Origin: Parvibaculaceae bacterium
Lineage (GTDB): Bacteria; Pseudomonadota; Alphaproteobacteria; Parvibaculales; Parvibaculaceae
Length of the DNA: 64,000 bases
Reading direction: 5' to 3'
Assembly: GCA_028283765.1 (NCBI GenBank)
Contig: JAPWJY010000009.1
Coordinates: forward strand, 186,001 to 250,000
Shown here: in pieces, positions 5,676 to 30,554 of the stretch
Position numbering within the stretch: position 1 is the stretch's first letter
Layout: the number at the start of each line of letters is the position of its first letter
The notes under the pieces: generated by a model
What the model saw: only the letters and a program-made list of their open reading frames with translations
The model's database searches: none
What the model was told of the DNA's origin: nothing
Made by a program: the position numbers and the translations under genes

Positions 5676-7552
5676 CAGGCGCTCGCCCTGCTGGCGGCAT
5701 GGCGATGCGCGCCGCTCTTGATATGAACAAGCAGCGCCGTCACGGCGGCAGGCGTGACGCCATTGATCCGGGCCGCCTGCCCGAGCGTCGCCGGGCGCGC
5801 CTGCGTCAGTTTCTGGCGGCATTCGATGGAAAGCCCCCCGATTCGGGCATAATCCAGATCATCGGGAATCCGGATGCTTTCGTCGCGGCGGAAGGCCCGG
5901 ATATCCGCCTCCTGCCGGTCGATATAGCCGGAATAAAGGGCGTCCGCCTCGATCTGCTCGCGGATTTCAGGGGCGAGCGCGCCGAAGGCGGGCCAGATTT
6001 CGGCCAATGTCTCACTGGAAATATCGGGATAGGCCAGCAGGTCCGTGAGGCTGCGGGCGACGCCATCCTGATTGATCTTGAGGCCAAGCCTTGCAAGCTC
6101 GTTCGGCGTCATCCGCGCCGAGCGGGCAAGAACCCTCGCCTGCTCCAGCGTTTCAAGCTTTGCGGCGAACCGCTCCGTCCGGGCGTCGCCGACAAGCCCG
6201 ATGTCCCGCCCGCGCAAGGTCAGGCGCTGATCGGCATTGTCAGCGCGCAGCGTCAGCCGATATTCGGCGCGCGAGGTGAACATGCGATAGGGCTCGGTGA
6301 CGCCCCGGGTCACCAGATCGTCGATCATGACGCCGATATAGGCTTCGGCCCGGGTAAGGATGAAAGGTTCGGCCCCCGCCGCCGCCAGAGCGGCATTGGC
6401 GCCCGCGACGAGCCCTTGCGCCGCCGCCTCCTCATAGCCGGTGGTGCCGTTGATCTGGCCCGCCAGATAAAGGCCCTTCAGCCGCTTGGCCTCCATCGTC
6501 GGCAGCAGTTCGCGCGGATCGATATAGTCATATTCGATGGCATAGCCGTGGCGCTTCACCCTCACCTGCTCAAGGCCGGGGATGGTGCGCAGAAAGGCTT
6601 CCTGTATTTCTTCCGGCAGGGCCGTCGAAATGCCGTTGGGATAGATCGTATCGTCGTCGAGCCCTTCCGGCTCCAGAAAGATCTGGTGGCCGTCGCGGTC
6701 GCCGAAGCGCACCACCTTGTCCTCGATCGAGGGGCAATAGCGCGGGCCCACGCCCTCGATCAACCCGGCATAGACCGGCGAAAACCTGAGATTATCCCGG
6801 ATGATCCGGTGGGTTTCCATCGTGGTCCGGGTGATATGGCAGACGACCTGAGGGGTCGTGATCGCTCCGGTCATGAAGGAAAAGGGCACCGGAGGCTCGT
6901 CGCCCGGCTGCTCTTCAAGCTGCGCCCAGTCGATGGAATGGGCGTCGAGCCGGGCCGGGGTCCCGGTCTTGAGCCGCCCCATCTGGAAGCCGGCCGCATA
7001 AAGCTGATCGGAAATGCCAAGCGCAGGCGCTTCACCAACCCGCCCCGCCGGGATGCGCTTGAGGCCCAGATGGATCATGCCGCGCAGGAAAGTGCCGGTG
7101 GTGAGCACGATGCGCGCGGCATGAAAGCTGCGCCCGTCCTCGGTCCGTACGCCTTCCAAGCGGTCGCCGTCCAAAAGAAAGGCGTTCACCGCCCCTTCCA
7201 CGATGGTGAGATTGGCCTGGGCTTCGATGGCGGCCTGCATCGCTTGGCGATAGAGCTTTCGGTCGGCTTGCGCCCGCGGCCCCCGGACGGCGGGGCCCTT
7301 GCGGCGGTTGAGCAGGCGGAACTGGATGCCTGCCGCATCCGCGACCCGGCCCATCAGCCCGTCGAGCGCATCGATTTCACGCACCAGATGGCCCTTGCCG
7401 AGCCCGCCAATGGCCGGATTGCAGGACATTTCACCGATGGTCGCGAATTTATGGGTGATCAGCGCTGTGCGCGCGCCAAGGCGCGCCGATGCCGCGGCGG
7501 CTTCCGCGCCCGCATGGCCTCCCCCGATCACGATGACGTCAAAGCGTTCCAT
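5675..7552 (-). CDS. mnmG: tRNA uridine 5-carboxymethylaminomethyl modification enzyme MnmG (GidA)
   Basis: FAD- and NADH-dependent partner of MnmE that installs cmnm5 at wobble U34 of certain tRNAs. The 625-residue length is standard. The N-terminal dinucleotide motif [11 protein letters not shown] is at residues 9-19, followed by [14 protein letters not shown] (family signature around residue 45) and the later [12 protein letters not shown] and [16 protein letters not shown] blocks. The stop overlaps the rsmG start. Upstream is a 110-bp gap to mnmE containing two parS sites. Confidence 0.98.
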
Positions 7553-28085: not shown

Positions 28086-28868
<783 letters not shown>

Positions 28869-29029: not shown

Positions 29030-29515
29030 TCAGGCCGAGGATTTACCAGCCGATGAGCGGCTCGATGCCGTCTGGAGCTCACGCCTGAGCTGGTTAAGGC
29101 GCAAGGTCATGGCACCGGCTCGCTGATCCTCCGGGACCTCAACGATCTCGCTGTAGAGCCGCGTGGCGACCTTGACGCTCTGCCCCATGCCAATCCTTTG
29201 GTTTTCTTCCCGGTAAAGGGCCTGTACGGCCTCTGTGAGCCTGCCAAGCAGCTCGCCATCAATGCCGGGAGCATCCCTGTAATCAGGAGAGGCCGTGCTG
29301 GCGGGCTCGGCGCCGAGCAGCCAATCCACTGAAACATTGGATTTTTTAGCTATCCGCAATAAGTGCTCGGCTTTCGGAATCGACCCCTCTCGCCAGATCC
29401 TGTCGAAGGTGGCGCTCGGGATGCCGACTTCCTTCGCCCAGATATATGGCTTCTTGTCGCCGATCAGCAATTTAAGCCTGTCCTTGAAATCGGAGTTCCC
29501 TATTTCAGAGTTCAT
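29030..29515 (-). CDS. Phage CI/c-type repressor with N-terminal HTH
   Basis: 161-residue DNA-binding protein. Residues 9-70 form the CI-repressor HTH domain: FKDRLKLLIGDKKPYIWAKE, VGIPSATFDRIWREGSIPKAEHLLRIAK, and VSVDWLLG. The remaining ~90 residues are mostly helical, with no S24 (LexA-like) peptidase. Such proteins control lysogeny in P2/Mu-type phages. Its ATG (29513-29515) lies inside repeated AACTC operator-like elements, implying autoregulation. Divergent to the right is a broken Ner-like gene. No integrase, transposase or structural phage gene is nearby, so this appears to be an orphan immunity repressor. Confidence 0.82.
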   Translation of the reverse strand: MNSEIGNSDFKDRLKLLIGDKKPYIWAKEVGIPSATFDRIWREGSIPKAEHLLRIAKKSNVSVDWLLGAEPASTASPDYRDAPGIDGELLGRLTEAVQALYREENQRIGMGQSVKVATRLYSEIVEVPEDQRAGAMTLRLNQLRRELQTASSRSSAGKSSA

Positions 29516-29532
29516 CAGGGCAACTCCGAAAT
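29487..29532. promoter_or_regulatory. Putative repressor operators overlapping the repressor start
   Basis: Three copies of an AACTC-type element: complement of AACTCCGATTT at 29487-29497, complement of AACTCTGAAAT at 29502-29512, and AACTCCGAAAT at 29522-29532. The last two form an inverted pair with a nine-base spacer around the repressor start codon. Confidence 0.6.
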
Positions 29533-29622
29533 CGAACCAACGTGGAACCCAATGCTCAGGAAGGAAATTTCTCCTTTTGTTTCATTCACTTGATGGAACC
29601 CATGACAGAGCGGAGCAAACAC

Positions 29623-29633
29623 AACTCCGAAAC
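29623..29633. promoter_or_regulatory. Putative repressor operator (distal copy)
   Basis: AACTCCGAAAC, matching the copy at 29522 in ten of eleven positions, 12 bp before the -35 box of the rightward promoter. Confidence 0.55.
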
Positions 29634-29644
29634 GGAAATCATGG

Positions 29645-29673
29645 TTGAATAACTCTAAAAACGGGGTTACACT
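29645..29673 (+). promoter_or_regulatory. Rightward sigma-70-type promoter with embedded operator
   Basis: TTGAAT at 29645-29650 and TACACT at 29668-29673 with a 17-bp spacer. A fifth AACTC element (AACTCTAAAAA, 29651-29661) fills the first part of the spacer, so a bound repressor would block RNA polymerase. This is the layout expected of a phage early promoter. Confidence 0.55.
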
Positions 29674-29740
29674 CGTCATGGAAGTTGAATCTTGCCTCTG
29701 TTTAAAAGCCCGCCTTCACCAGGGCGGGTCAGGTAGAAAA

Positions 29741-29961
29741 ATGCCGTGCACAGCCGGAGGGATGCACCCGGAAGAAATAAAAGCCGCCCCGCGCGCCCGC
29801 TACGGCTCGCCTGAGGCCTTTTGCGTTCAGGGCCACGACCCCCGCTCTGCCATCCGCTTCGCTCTCAAGCGGGCATGGCGGCGGGTCGAGGCGCTGACAT
29901 CACGGCGCTCGACAGCATTCTGGCCTCCCAGTTGTTCTGGCCCGCTTCAGGACTCTCCTGA
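29741..29961 (+). pseudogene. Ner/Nlp-like DNA-binding regulator, frameshifted
   Basis: From ATG 29741 (or ATG 29762, which has CCGGAGGG before it) the frame gives MHPEEIKAAPRARYG, then PRSAIRFALKRAWRRVEA. This resembles the Mu Ner / E. coli Nlp (SfsB) family pattern HPxxIxAxLR ... AL.R.W...E. After about 29891 similarity jumps to another frame (ITALDSILASQLFWPASGLS, 29899-29958, stop 29959-29961), where the family's expected AL......WP ending appears. One base is missing or two are extra near 29891-29898. Ner is the early repressor transcribed opposite to c in Mu-like phages. A sequencing error is an alternative to genuine decay. Confidence 0.55.
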
Positions 29962-29967
29962 AGGACA

Positions 29968-30156
29968 ATGAACCATATTCGCACAACGCTCACACCCGGG
30001 AAGACCTCTCAGGGAAAATCTCTCCAGCCTTCCACGGACGAATGGACCGGCCAGCGGCAAGAAACGTCCGTTTCCACCGGACCGAAACGATCAGCCTTCA
30101 TGAAAGGTTTGCTGCTTTTCCTGTGGCACTTCTCAAACAGGGAATATCCTCAATAG
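29968..30156 (+). CDS. Small hypothetical protein downstream of the Ner-like gene
   Basis: 62 codons from ATG 29968, with GAAGGA just upstream and a start placed seven bases after the restored Ner-frame stop. The product is polar with a hydrophobic stretch near the end (AFMKGLLLFLWHF). I recognise no family. It may be a remnant of the next phage gene or a chance frame. Confidence 0.22.
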   Translation: MNHIRTTLTPGKTSQGKSLQPSTDEWTGQRQETSVSTGPKRSAFMKGLLLFLWHFSNREYPQ

Positions 30157-30165
30157 ACGCCGATT

Positions 30166-30468
30166 TCAGCCGGCGATCTGGTCCATGATCCGTGCCAGCT
30201 TGACATCGCGCTTGCTCAGGCCATCGACGTCATGGGTAGTCAGCGTCACCTCGACCTTGTTGTAGACGTTGAACCATTCAGGGTGATGATCGGCCTTTTC
30301 CGCCTCGAGTGCGACCCGGGCCATGAAACCGAACGCCTCGTTGAAGTTGTTGAACCTGAAAGTCTTCTGGATCGCATCGCGTTTCGGGTCAAGAGTCCAG
30401 CCGGGGAGTTTTTCCAGCGCGGCCTTGTGTTCCTTGTCCGTCAATCTGGTGATTTTGCCTTTGGGCAT
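30166..30468 (-). CDS. phhB: Pterin-4a-carbinolamine dehydratase
   Basis: Dehydrates 4a-hydroxytetrahydropterin, recycling the cofactor of aromatic amino acid hydroxylases; some homologues act in molybdopterin metabolism. From ATG 30466-30468 (GAGGAAG upstream) the protein is 100 residues, normal for the family. The active-site region [20 protein letters not shown] followed by [12 protein letters not shown] contains the three conserved His. No phenylalanine hydroxylase gene is adjacent. Confidence 0.93.
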
Positions 30469-30554
30469 GATCTTCCTCACGGTTTGCTGCTGCGGCCTGT
30501 TCTCCAACCCTCGTCTCTCTTGAGAGCGAGATCAAGCATGCCTAGATAGCATGT

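Follow-up and report, generated by a model that had tools for sequence, protein, structure and literature searches.

The AACTC-type repeats at 29487-29661 of the window (the whole 64,000-nucleotide stretch of Parvibaculaceae DNA that was analyzed) very probably represent the operator array of the lysis-lysogeny switch of a Mu-like transposable phage, left behind with its repressor after the phage was lost; that the repressor binds them we infer from comparative sequence data. The preliminary description of this DNA had interpreted the repeats as operators for the neighbouring repressor, their consensus being near AACTCCGAAAT, and phylogenetic footprinting strongly supports this proposal, since the motif and its spacings are shared by transposable phages with related repressors.

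All five copies were found where the preliminary description had placed them, each matching AACTCCGAAAT with 0-3 mismatches (Table 1). As had also been claimed, an inverted pair spans the repressor start codon, with copies 2 and 3 (S2 and S3) on either side of it, and the last copy lies inside the 17-bp spacer of the TTGAAT/TACACT promoter (Pe). S3 and S2 form an 11-bp inverted repeat, ATTTCGGAGTT-9 bp-AACTCTGAAAT, in which the start codon closes the spacer, and the Shine-Dalgarno GGAG (29524-29527) is carried on the complement of S3. S4 lies immediately upstream of Pe, and copy 5 is more aptly described as AACTCTAAAAACGGGGTT, a dyad of 18 bp at 29651-29668 (+) that fills the Pe spacer. Pe diverges from the repressor and was too weak to be called by a generic consensus promoter scan; a promoter is found at the corresponding position in the phage relatives.

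Table 1. Features of the insert and its flanks (window coordinates; site offsets are relative to the repressor)
Feature	Position	Strand	Remarks
SDR gene	28086-28868		Flanks insert; terminator extends to ~28925
Insert, probable relic of a transposable-phage switch	28930-30160 (limits approximate)		Flanking genes adjacent in many same-family genomes
Repressor, 161 aa	29030-29515	-	CI-type helix-turn-helix (PF07022) and helical C-terminal domain
S1, AACTCCGATTT	29487-29497	-	2 mismatches to AACTCCGAAAT; +18(+) from repressor start; codons 7-10
S2, AACTCTGAAAT	29502-29512	-	1 mismatch to AACTCCGAAAT; +3(+); codons 2-5 (N-S-E-I); family-conserved place
Repressor start codon ATG	29513-29515	-	Closes the 9-bp S3-S2 spacer (its final 3 nt)
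S3, AACTCCGAAAT	29522-29532	+	0 mismatches; -17(-); family-conserved place
S4, AACTCCGAAAC	29623-29633	+	1 mismatch to AACTCCGAAAT; -118(-); runs on into GGAAAT
Early promoter Pe (putative)	29645-29673	+	-35 TTGAAT 29645-29650, 17-bp spacer, -10 TACACT 29668-29673
S5, copy 5 as 11-mer	29651-29661	+	3 mismatches to AACTCCGAAAT
ner-like gene (HTH_35 region)	29741-29971	+	Apparent frameshift split in both strains
Pterin-carbinolamine-dehydratase-like (PCD-like) gene	30166-30507		Other flank of insert

The cluster had been called unlikely by chance, which holds only moderately, as 0.2-0.8% of shuffles equal it at 1-2 mismatches. In free-word dinucleotide shuffles of 29480-29670 the cluster was matched 2, 8 and 23 times per 1000 (1, 2 and 3 mismatches), and the same count was reached by 10, 32 and 106 of 664 other 191-bp stretches of the window. 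At these rates (1.5-5% of the other stretches at 1-2 mismatches), the cluster by itself is suggestive and not decisive. Using the consensus AACTCCGAAAT, which was derived post hoc, 431 matches with at most 2 mismatches were counted in the 3.24-Mb genome, so that 0.025 would be expected in 29480-29670, where four were seen.

More decisive evidence came from viral contigs, which were searched in two ways. A protein-first retrieval, an alignment scan for the helix-turn-helix (HTH), gave 18 loci. Nine of them, eight of which are distinct (L112 and L113 are near-identical), have an x-R-x-W helix resembling that of the window repressor, and all nine carry 4-7 sites of at least 9/11 within -220 to +60 of the repressor start (0.10-0.24 in shuffles), while those checked among the nine loci with other helices (L120, L121, L123, L125, L126 and L128) have no sites. 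The AACT(C/A)CGAA sites of the x-R-x-W contigs lie at fixed places: at +3(+), or +6 in L114, where site and start codon are two codons apart; at -14 to -17(-); at -117 to -121(-); mostly at -48 to -50(+); and, in four of the eight distinct phages, at -25 to -29(-). The DNA-first search used the pattern TTCGGRGTT-N6-RTG-AACTMCGAA, which comprises the Shine-Dalgarno arm, six bases, the start codon and the codon arm. It matched 10 viral contigs, five of them new, and every match was a repressor start. Of the five new contigs, four also show sites at -49 and -120, positions that the query did not cover; the exception, L136, has no -120 site and a weak -49 site, and its repressor is cut by the contig end. 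With one mismatch allowed, the pattern was absent from all 397 other genomes, leaving the host's own genome as the sole match among 398.

Across the 14 contigs, the core AACTCCGAA is present at +3 and -17 in all 14, at -29 in 5, at -49 in 12 and at -120 in 13. L114 also lacks the -49 site, so this site is not universal. Beyond the -120 site lies a divergent -35, a spacer of mostly 17 bp and a -10, and dyads comparable to that in the Pe spacer occur in L111, L112, L115, L116 and L117. Every array-bearing contig long enough to show it is Mu-like and has MuA, several with ner-like or MuB genes. The same putative operator sites and spacings, partly within the ribosome-binding site and first codons, thus recur in more than 10 transposable phages. 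Protein searches found no cultured phage with a AACTCCGAA array. In a spacer-length control with ATTTCNGAGTT-N4..20-AACTCNGAAAT, five contigs (four distinct) had 9-bp spacers. Three related podovirus contigs with a 10-bp spacer were set aside as a coding coincidence inside a coiled-coil gene, as were the T4-like structural-gene contigs L102, L104 and L105, matched by a looser pattern and likewise coding.

We define these loci as the AACTCCGAA start-codon operator family, of which the window has the +3(+)/-17(-) pair with the Shine-Dalgarno in the -17 arm, and the -118(-) site followed by -35, 17 bp and -10. The uncultivated IMG/VR transposable phages of this family (L098, L101, L103, L106, L111, L115-L117, L132, L134-L137) share the window's operators, spacings, start-codon overlap and promoter. 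On sufficiently long contigs they have ner-like and MuA genes, whereas the window, as a relic, lacks MuA and MuB. The window keeps the +3, -17, -120-type (-118) and promoter-spacer sites, S4 and S5 being at family-conserved places as S2 and S3 are; S1 is not conserved in position and is extra relative to the phages. The -29 site is missing from the window, and the -49(+) site is missing from both the window and G001, a genome of the same genus (best match 5/11).

These comparisons bear on the possibility that the cluster is a chance product of AT-rich intergenic DNA, combined with first codons (N-S-E-I-G-N-S-D) that happen to spell the motif. The free-word test is just moderately significant and S1 and S2 are coding, which would suit that explanation, and the preliminary statement that the repeats are not explained by coding has to be qualified accordingly, as copies 1 and 2 lie inside the repressor coding sequence. 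Against chance plus coding, the codons are held at the nucleotide level, AAC and GAA being fixed in 14/14 contigs, and sequence, strand and spacing are conserved across phages. This explanation has next to no probability, and the comparative data already refute it.

The sites might instead belong to a host regulator with genome-wide targets, the phage relic merely carrying copies. In keeping with this, a cellulose-synthesis gene cluster is preceded by a further exact copy at C7:6560; this copy is compatible with chance, as we estimate that ~1.5 copies of an 11-mer are expected in 3.24 Mb. The preliminary description had named equally frequent copies elsewhere in the genome as grounds for refutation, and this check did not refute the operator reading: outside the cluster, counts equal those of the reversed-pattern control, both for AACTCCGAAAT (at most 2 mismatches) and for AACTCYGAAAWCGR (at most 2) over the 3.24 Mb. 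The 14-mer AACTCYGAAAWCGR has six genome matches with at most 1 mismatch, three of them at the repressor locus. The genome motif search that had been suggested for detecting host targets thus gave no excess of further copies and no sign of a host regulon. Most of the other matches examined fall inside coding sequence. A host regulon was rejected on these grounds, and ownership of the sites by a host regulator is highly improbable.

Within the phage-switch reading, the protein that reads the sites is most likely the repressor, because spacing is kept while the letters of the motif follow the repressor. In L114 and L117 the helix LTPGVFNRMW is paired with AACTACG and not AACTCCG, save at the Shine-Dalgarno arm, which keeps CC, and the operator-encoded Ser of the repressor becomes Tyr. 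Replaced helices in L134 and L135 are paired with a different base at position 10 of nearly all sites (G in L134, C in L135). In L018, a transposable phage that is more distant and has a different HTH, AACTGTCGC occurs at 0, -18, -52 and -124, compared with 0, -18, -52 and -121 in the family, and the array lies ahead of the start codon. No site above 8/10 occurs in about 30 further PF07022 homologs from Pseudomonadota that have other helices, which suggests that the motif is limited to particular helices; such sites are also missing from Neisseria homologs, whose helix FSRIWNEG is similar. Chromosomal S24 repressors of the alphaproteobacterial family f73, whose HTH is 55-62% identical to that of the window and whose helix is IPSATFxRIW, have TAACTCCGAAAACGGA upstream together with an inverted copy, and both persist in genus g456 despite divergence elsewhere. 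These helix-motif correlations represent few independent events.

The core is retained in L134, L135 and L100 despite their different helices, so a protein other than the repressor could be the reader. One candidate is the N-terminal domain of a MuA-like transposase, for which the array would be, or would also be, a transposition enhancer. In Mu, operator and enhancer are a single element at a comparable place (PMC3820752), and every sufficiently long array-bearing contig has MuA. Several observations weigh against an enhancer: the motif varies with the repressor helix; the MuA N-terminal domain of L135 differs too, yet the core stays; DMS3 has a similar MuA N-terminal domain and other repeats; the f73 loci have the motif, with no transposase seen in neighbouring ORFs; and the window has no MuA. 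We consider an enhancer function unlikely.

It is also conceivable that the inverted pair acts mainly as an mRNA hairpin, in which the CUCC of codons 3-4 pairs with GGAG to hide the Shine-Dalgarno and control repressor translation. Strong hairpins are predicted in L112 (z -4.8), L119 (-5.4), L111 (-3.4) and L118 (-3.2), and some phages may form one across the start site. L115, L117 and L114 have no significant structure, however, the predicted fold of the window uses other pairs, and the arm changes in L114, L115 and L117 break pairing rather than keep it. A hairpin would also leave the distant -49 and -120 copies unexplained, and the comparable L018 array lies upstream of the start codon. Lacking conservation, the hairpin was rejected as the primary function, and we regard it as very unlikely to be the main role of the pair.

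The operator reading is accompanied by evidence that the locus is an insert. The SDR and PCD-like genes are adjacent in many same-family genomes, with ~76-234 bp between the two gene matches, and relatives of the host lack the entire ~1.2-kb insert, which G001 shares; this adjacency implies that ~1.2 kb was inserted in an ancestor of G000 and G001. Inspection by eye found neither a target-site duplication nor phage ends. In some same-family genomes (L070, L085 and L088) the SDR/PCD-like intergenic region is extended and apparently contains other small ORFs; this may be a recurrent insertion site.

The repressor reaches the Phage_CI_repr (PF07022) cut-off marginally (22.3 vs 22 bits), an assignment backed by homology to phage repressors. 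It has no match to the Peptidase_S24 domain, which is present in its homologs L115 and L015. Its best full-length relative is encoded on viral contig L137 (36% identity, E 6e-32), and its C-terminal domain resembles those of alphaproteobacterial transposable-phage repressors. Protein searches using the window repressor alone gave no close phage, and a fold search with it (structure model pLDDT 78.6) returned ordinary HTH matches only, all with E > 0.3. The divergent ner-like remnant falls short of the curated cut-off for PF13693 both in frame (E 0.026) and when read through (E 0.0015), and the phage relatives have intact ner-like ORFs at the corresponding place. No transposase lies in the insert; the PCD-like gene comes next and there is no MuA or MuB beside repressor and ner. 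A Mu-transpos_C profile search of the genome gave no match, with the controls silent too. Elsewhere in the host's family, contig C57 of G005 (L007, 8825-13198) holds a transposable prophage early region with repressor, ner, MuA, MuB and a different operator.

Comparison with G001, the single other strain carrying the locus, suggests that the relic is constrained. All 71 repressor residues available in G001 are identical, with four synonymous changes, and 29607-29674 (S4, Pe and S5) has no change, while the adjoining 59 bp (29548-29606) has 13. From these two strains, the relic and its repressor look to be still under selection. Two site changes are C/T swaps at one tolerated position; G001 has AACTCCGAAAT at S2, which gives a perfect 11-bp inverted repeat with S3. 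There is also no change in 29832-30050, despite the broken ner-like frame and ~20% divergence in other nearby non-coding DNA; a 62-aa ORF (29968-30156) begins within this stretch. The lack of change could reflect either constraint or recent recombination.

In the mechanism that we propose, a dimer or higher oligomer of the repressor most likely occupies AACTCCGAA(AT) half-sites. On S3/S2 the repressor would cover its own Shine-Dalgarno GGAG, start codon and codons 2-5 and would limit its own expression, acting at the promoter or as a roadblock, while on S4 and the S5 dyad it would block Pe. In an intact phage Pe would drive ner, A and B, which the repressor would hold off; the repressor of the relic could make its host immune to phages of the AACTCCGAA operator family. 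Given the missing -49 and -29 sites, the weak Pe and the broken ner, the switch of the window may be decaying. A broader and more speculative proposal, doubtful at present, is that transposable phages share a fixed scaffold (0, -18, -52, ~-121) while the letters change with the repressor, that the array is at once operator, ribosome-binding site and start codons, and MuA-read enhancer, and that the relic is selected for immunity.

A CI-type repressor with a divergent ner and operators between them is an already known kind of switch. In Mu, repressor and ner are divergent with operators between, and the early promoter leads to ner-A-B (PMC3820752). The window family resembles this early switch (repressor c/ner, Pe, PcM, operator/enhancer) in these respects and differs in that the Mu repressor is homologous to MuA, whereas that of the window family is CI-type (PF07022), in its operator sequence, in the overlap with the ribosome-binding site and codons 2-5, and in the absence of A and B from the window. 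The Pseudomonas phages DMS3, MP22 and Komp_PA14_H have a CI-like c repressor, a full-length homolog of the L101 repressor at ~38%, and divergent early genes with MuA and MuB; they differ in having other repeats at the repressor start and no start-codon AACTCCGAA pair. DMS3 (L130) has four AGYTCTATAG-type repeats 45-110 bp upstream of the c repressor, spaced 19-23 bp, which are candidate operators. L018 resembles the window in its spaced array before a CI-like repressor and in the C-terminal domain, and differs in motif, HTH and the position of its start codon downstream of the array; it lies in G081, where five AACTGTCGC sites precede the repressor at 6591-6725. The f73 S24 repressors share the window's helix and have AACTCCGAAAACGGA with an inverted copy upstream, and differ in the S24 domain, another geometry and the absence of a start-codon site. 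In the f73 loci L054-L059 and L009 the S24-type repressor follows two conserved chromosomal genes (loci read: L015-L017), with the AACTCCGAAAACGGA inverted pair upstream; it is possibly a domesticated phage repressor.

What appears to be new, within the collections and literature searched, is the AACTCCGAA operator class with its fixed geometry and overlap with the translation start; our literature search found no paper describing a AACTCCGAA-type motif, or a transposable phage whose operators lie at a start codon. For a group of uncultivated transposable phages, this class provides a sequence-defined candidate operator together with the rules of its spacing; one operator would double as Shine-Dalgarno sequence and codons 2-5, so that the third residue of the repressor (Ser or Tyr) follows the operator. 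The correlation between helix and motif opens a way into CI-type specificity, and the motif combined with its geometry makes it possible to recognize such switches and relics in raw sequence. Repeats within repressor coding sequence are also seen in the Mu-like phages L022 and L131 of Vibrio and Shewanella, where AAAAGGAAC occurs in both orientations upstream of the repressor and inside its N-terminal coding extension; these are candidate coding-embedded operators with another motif.
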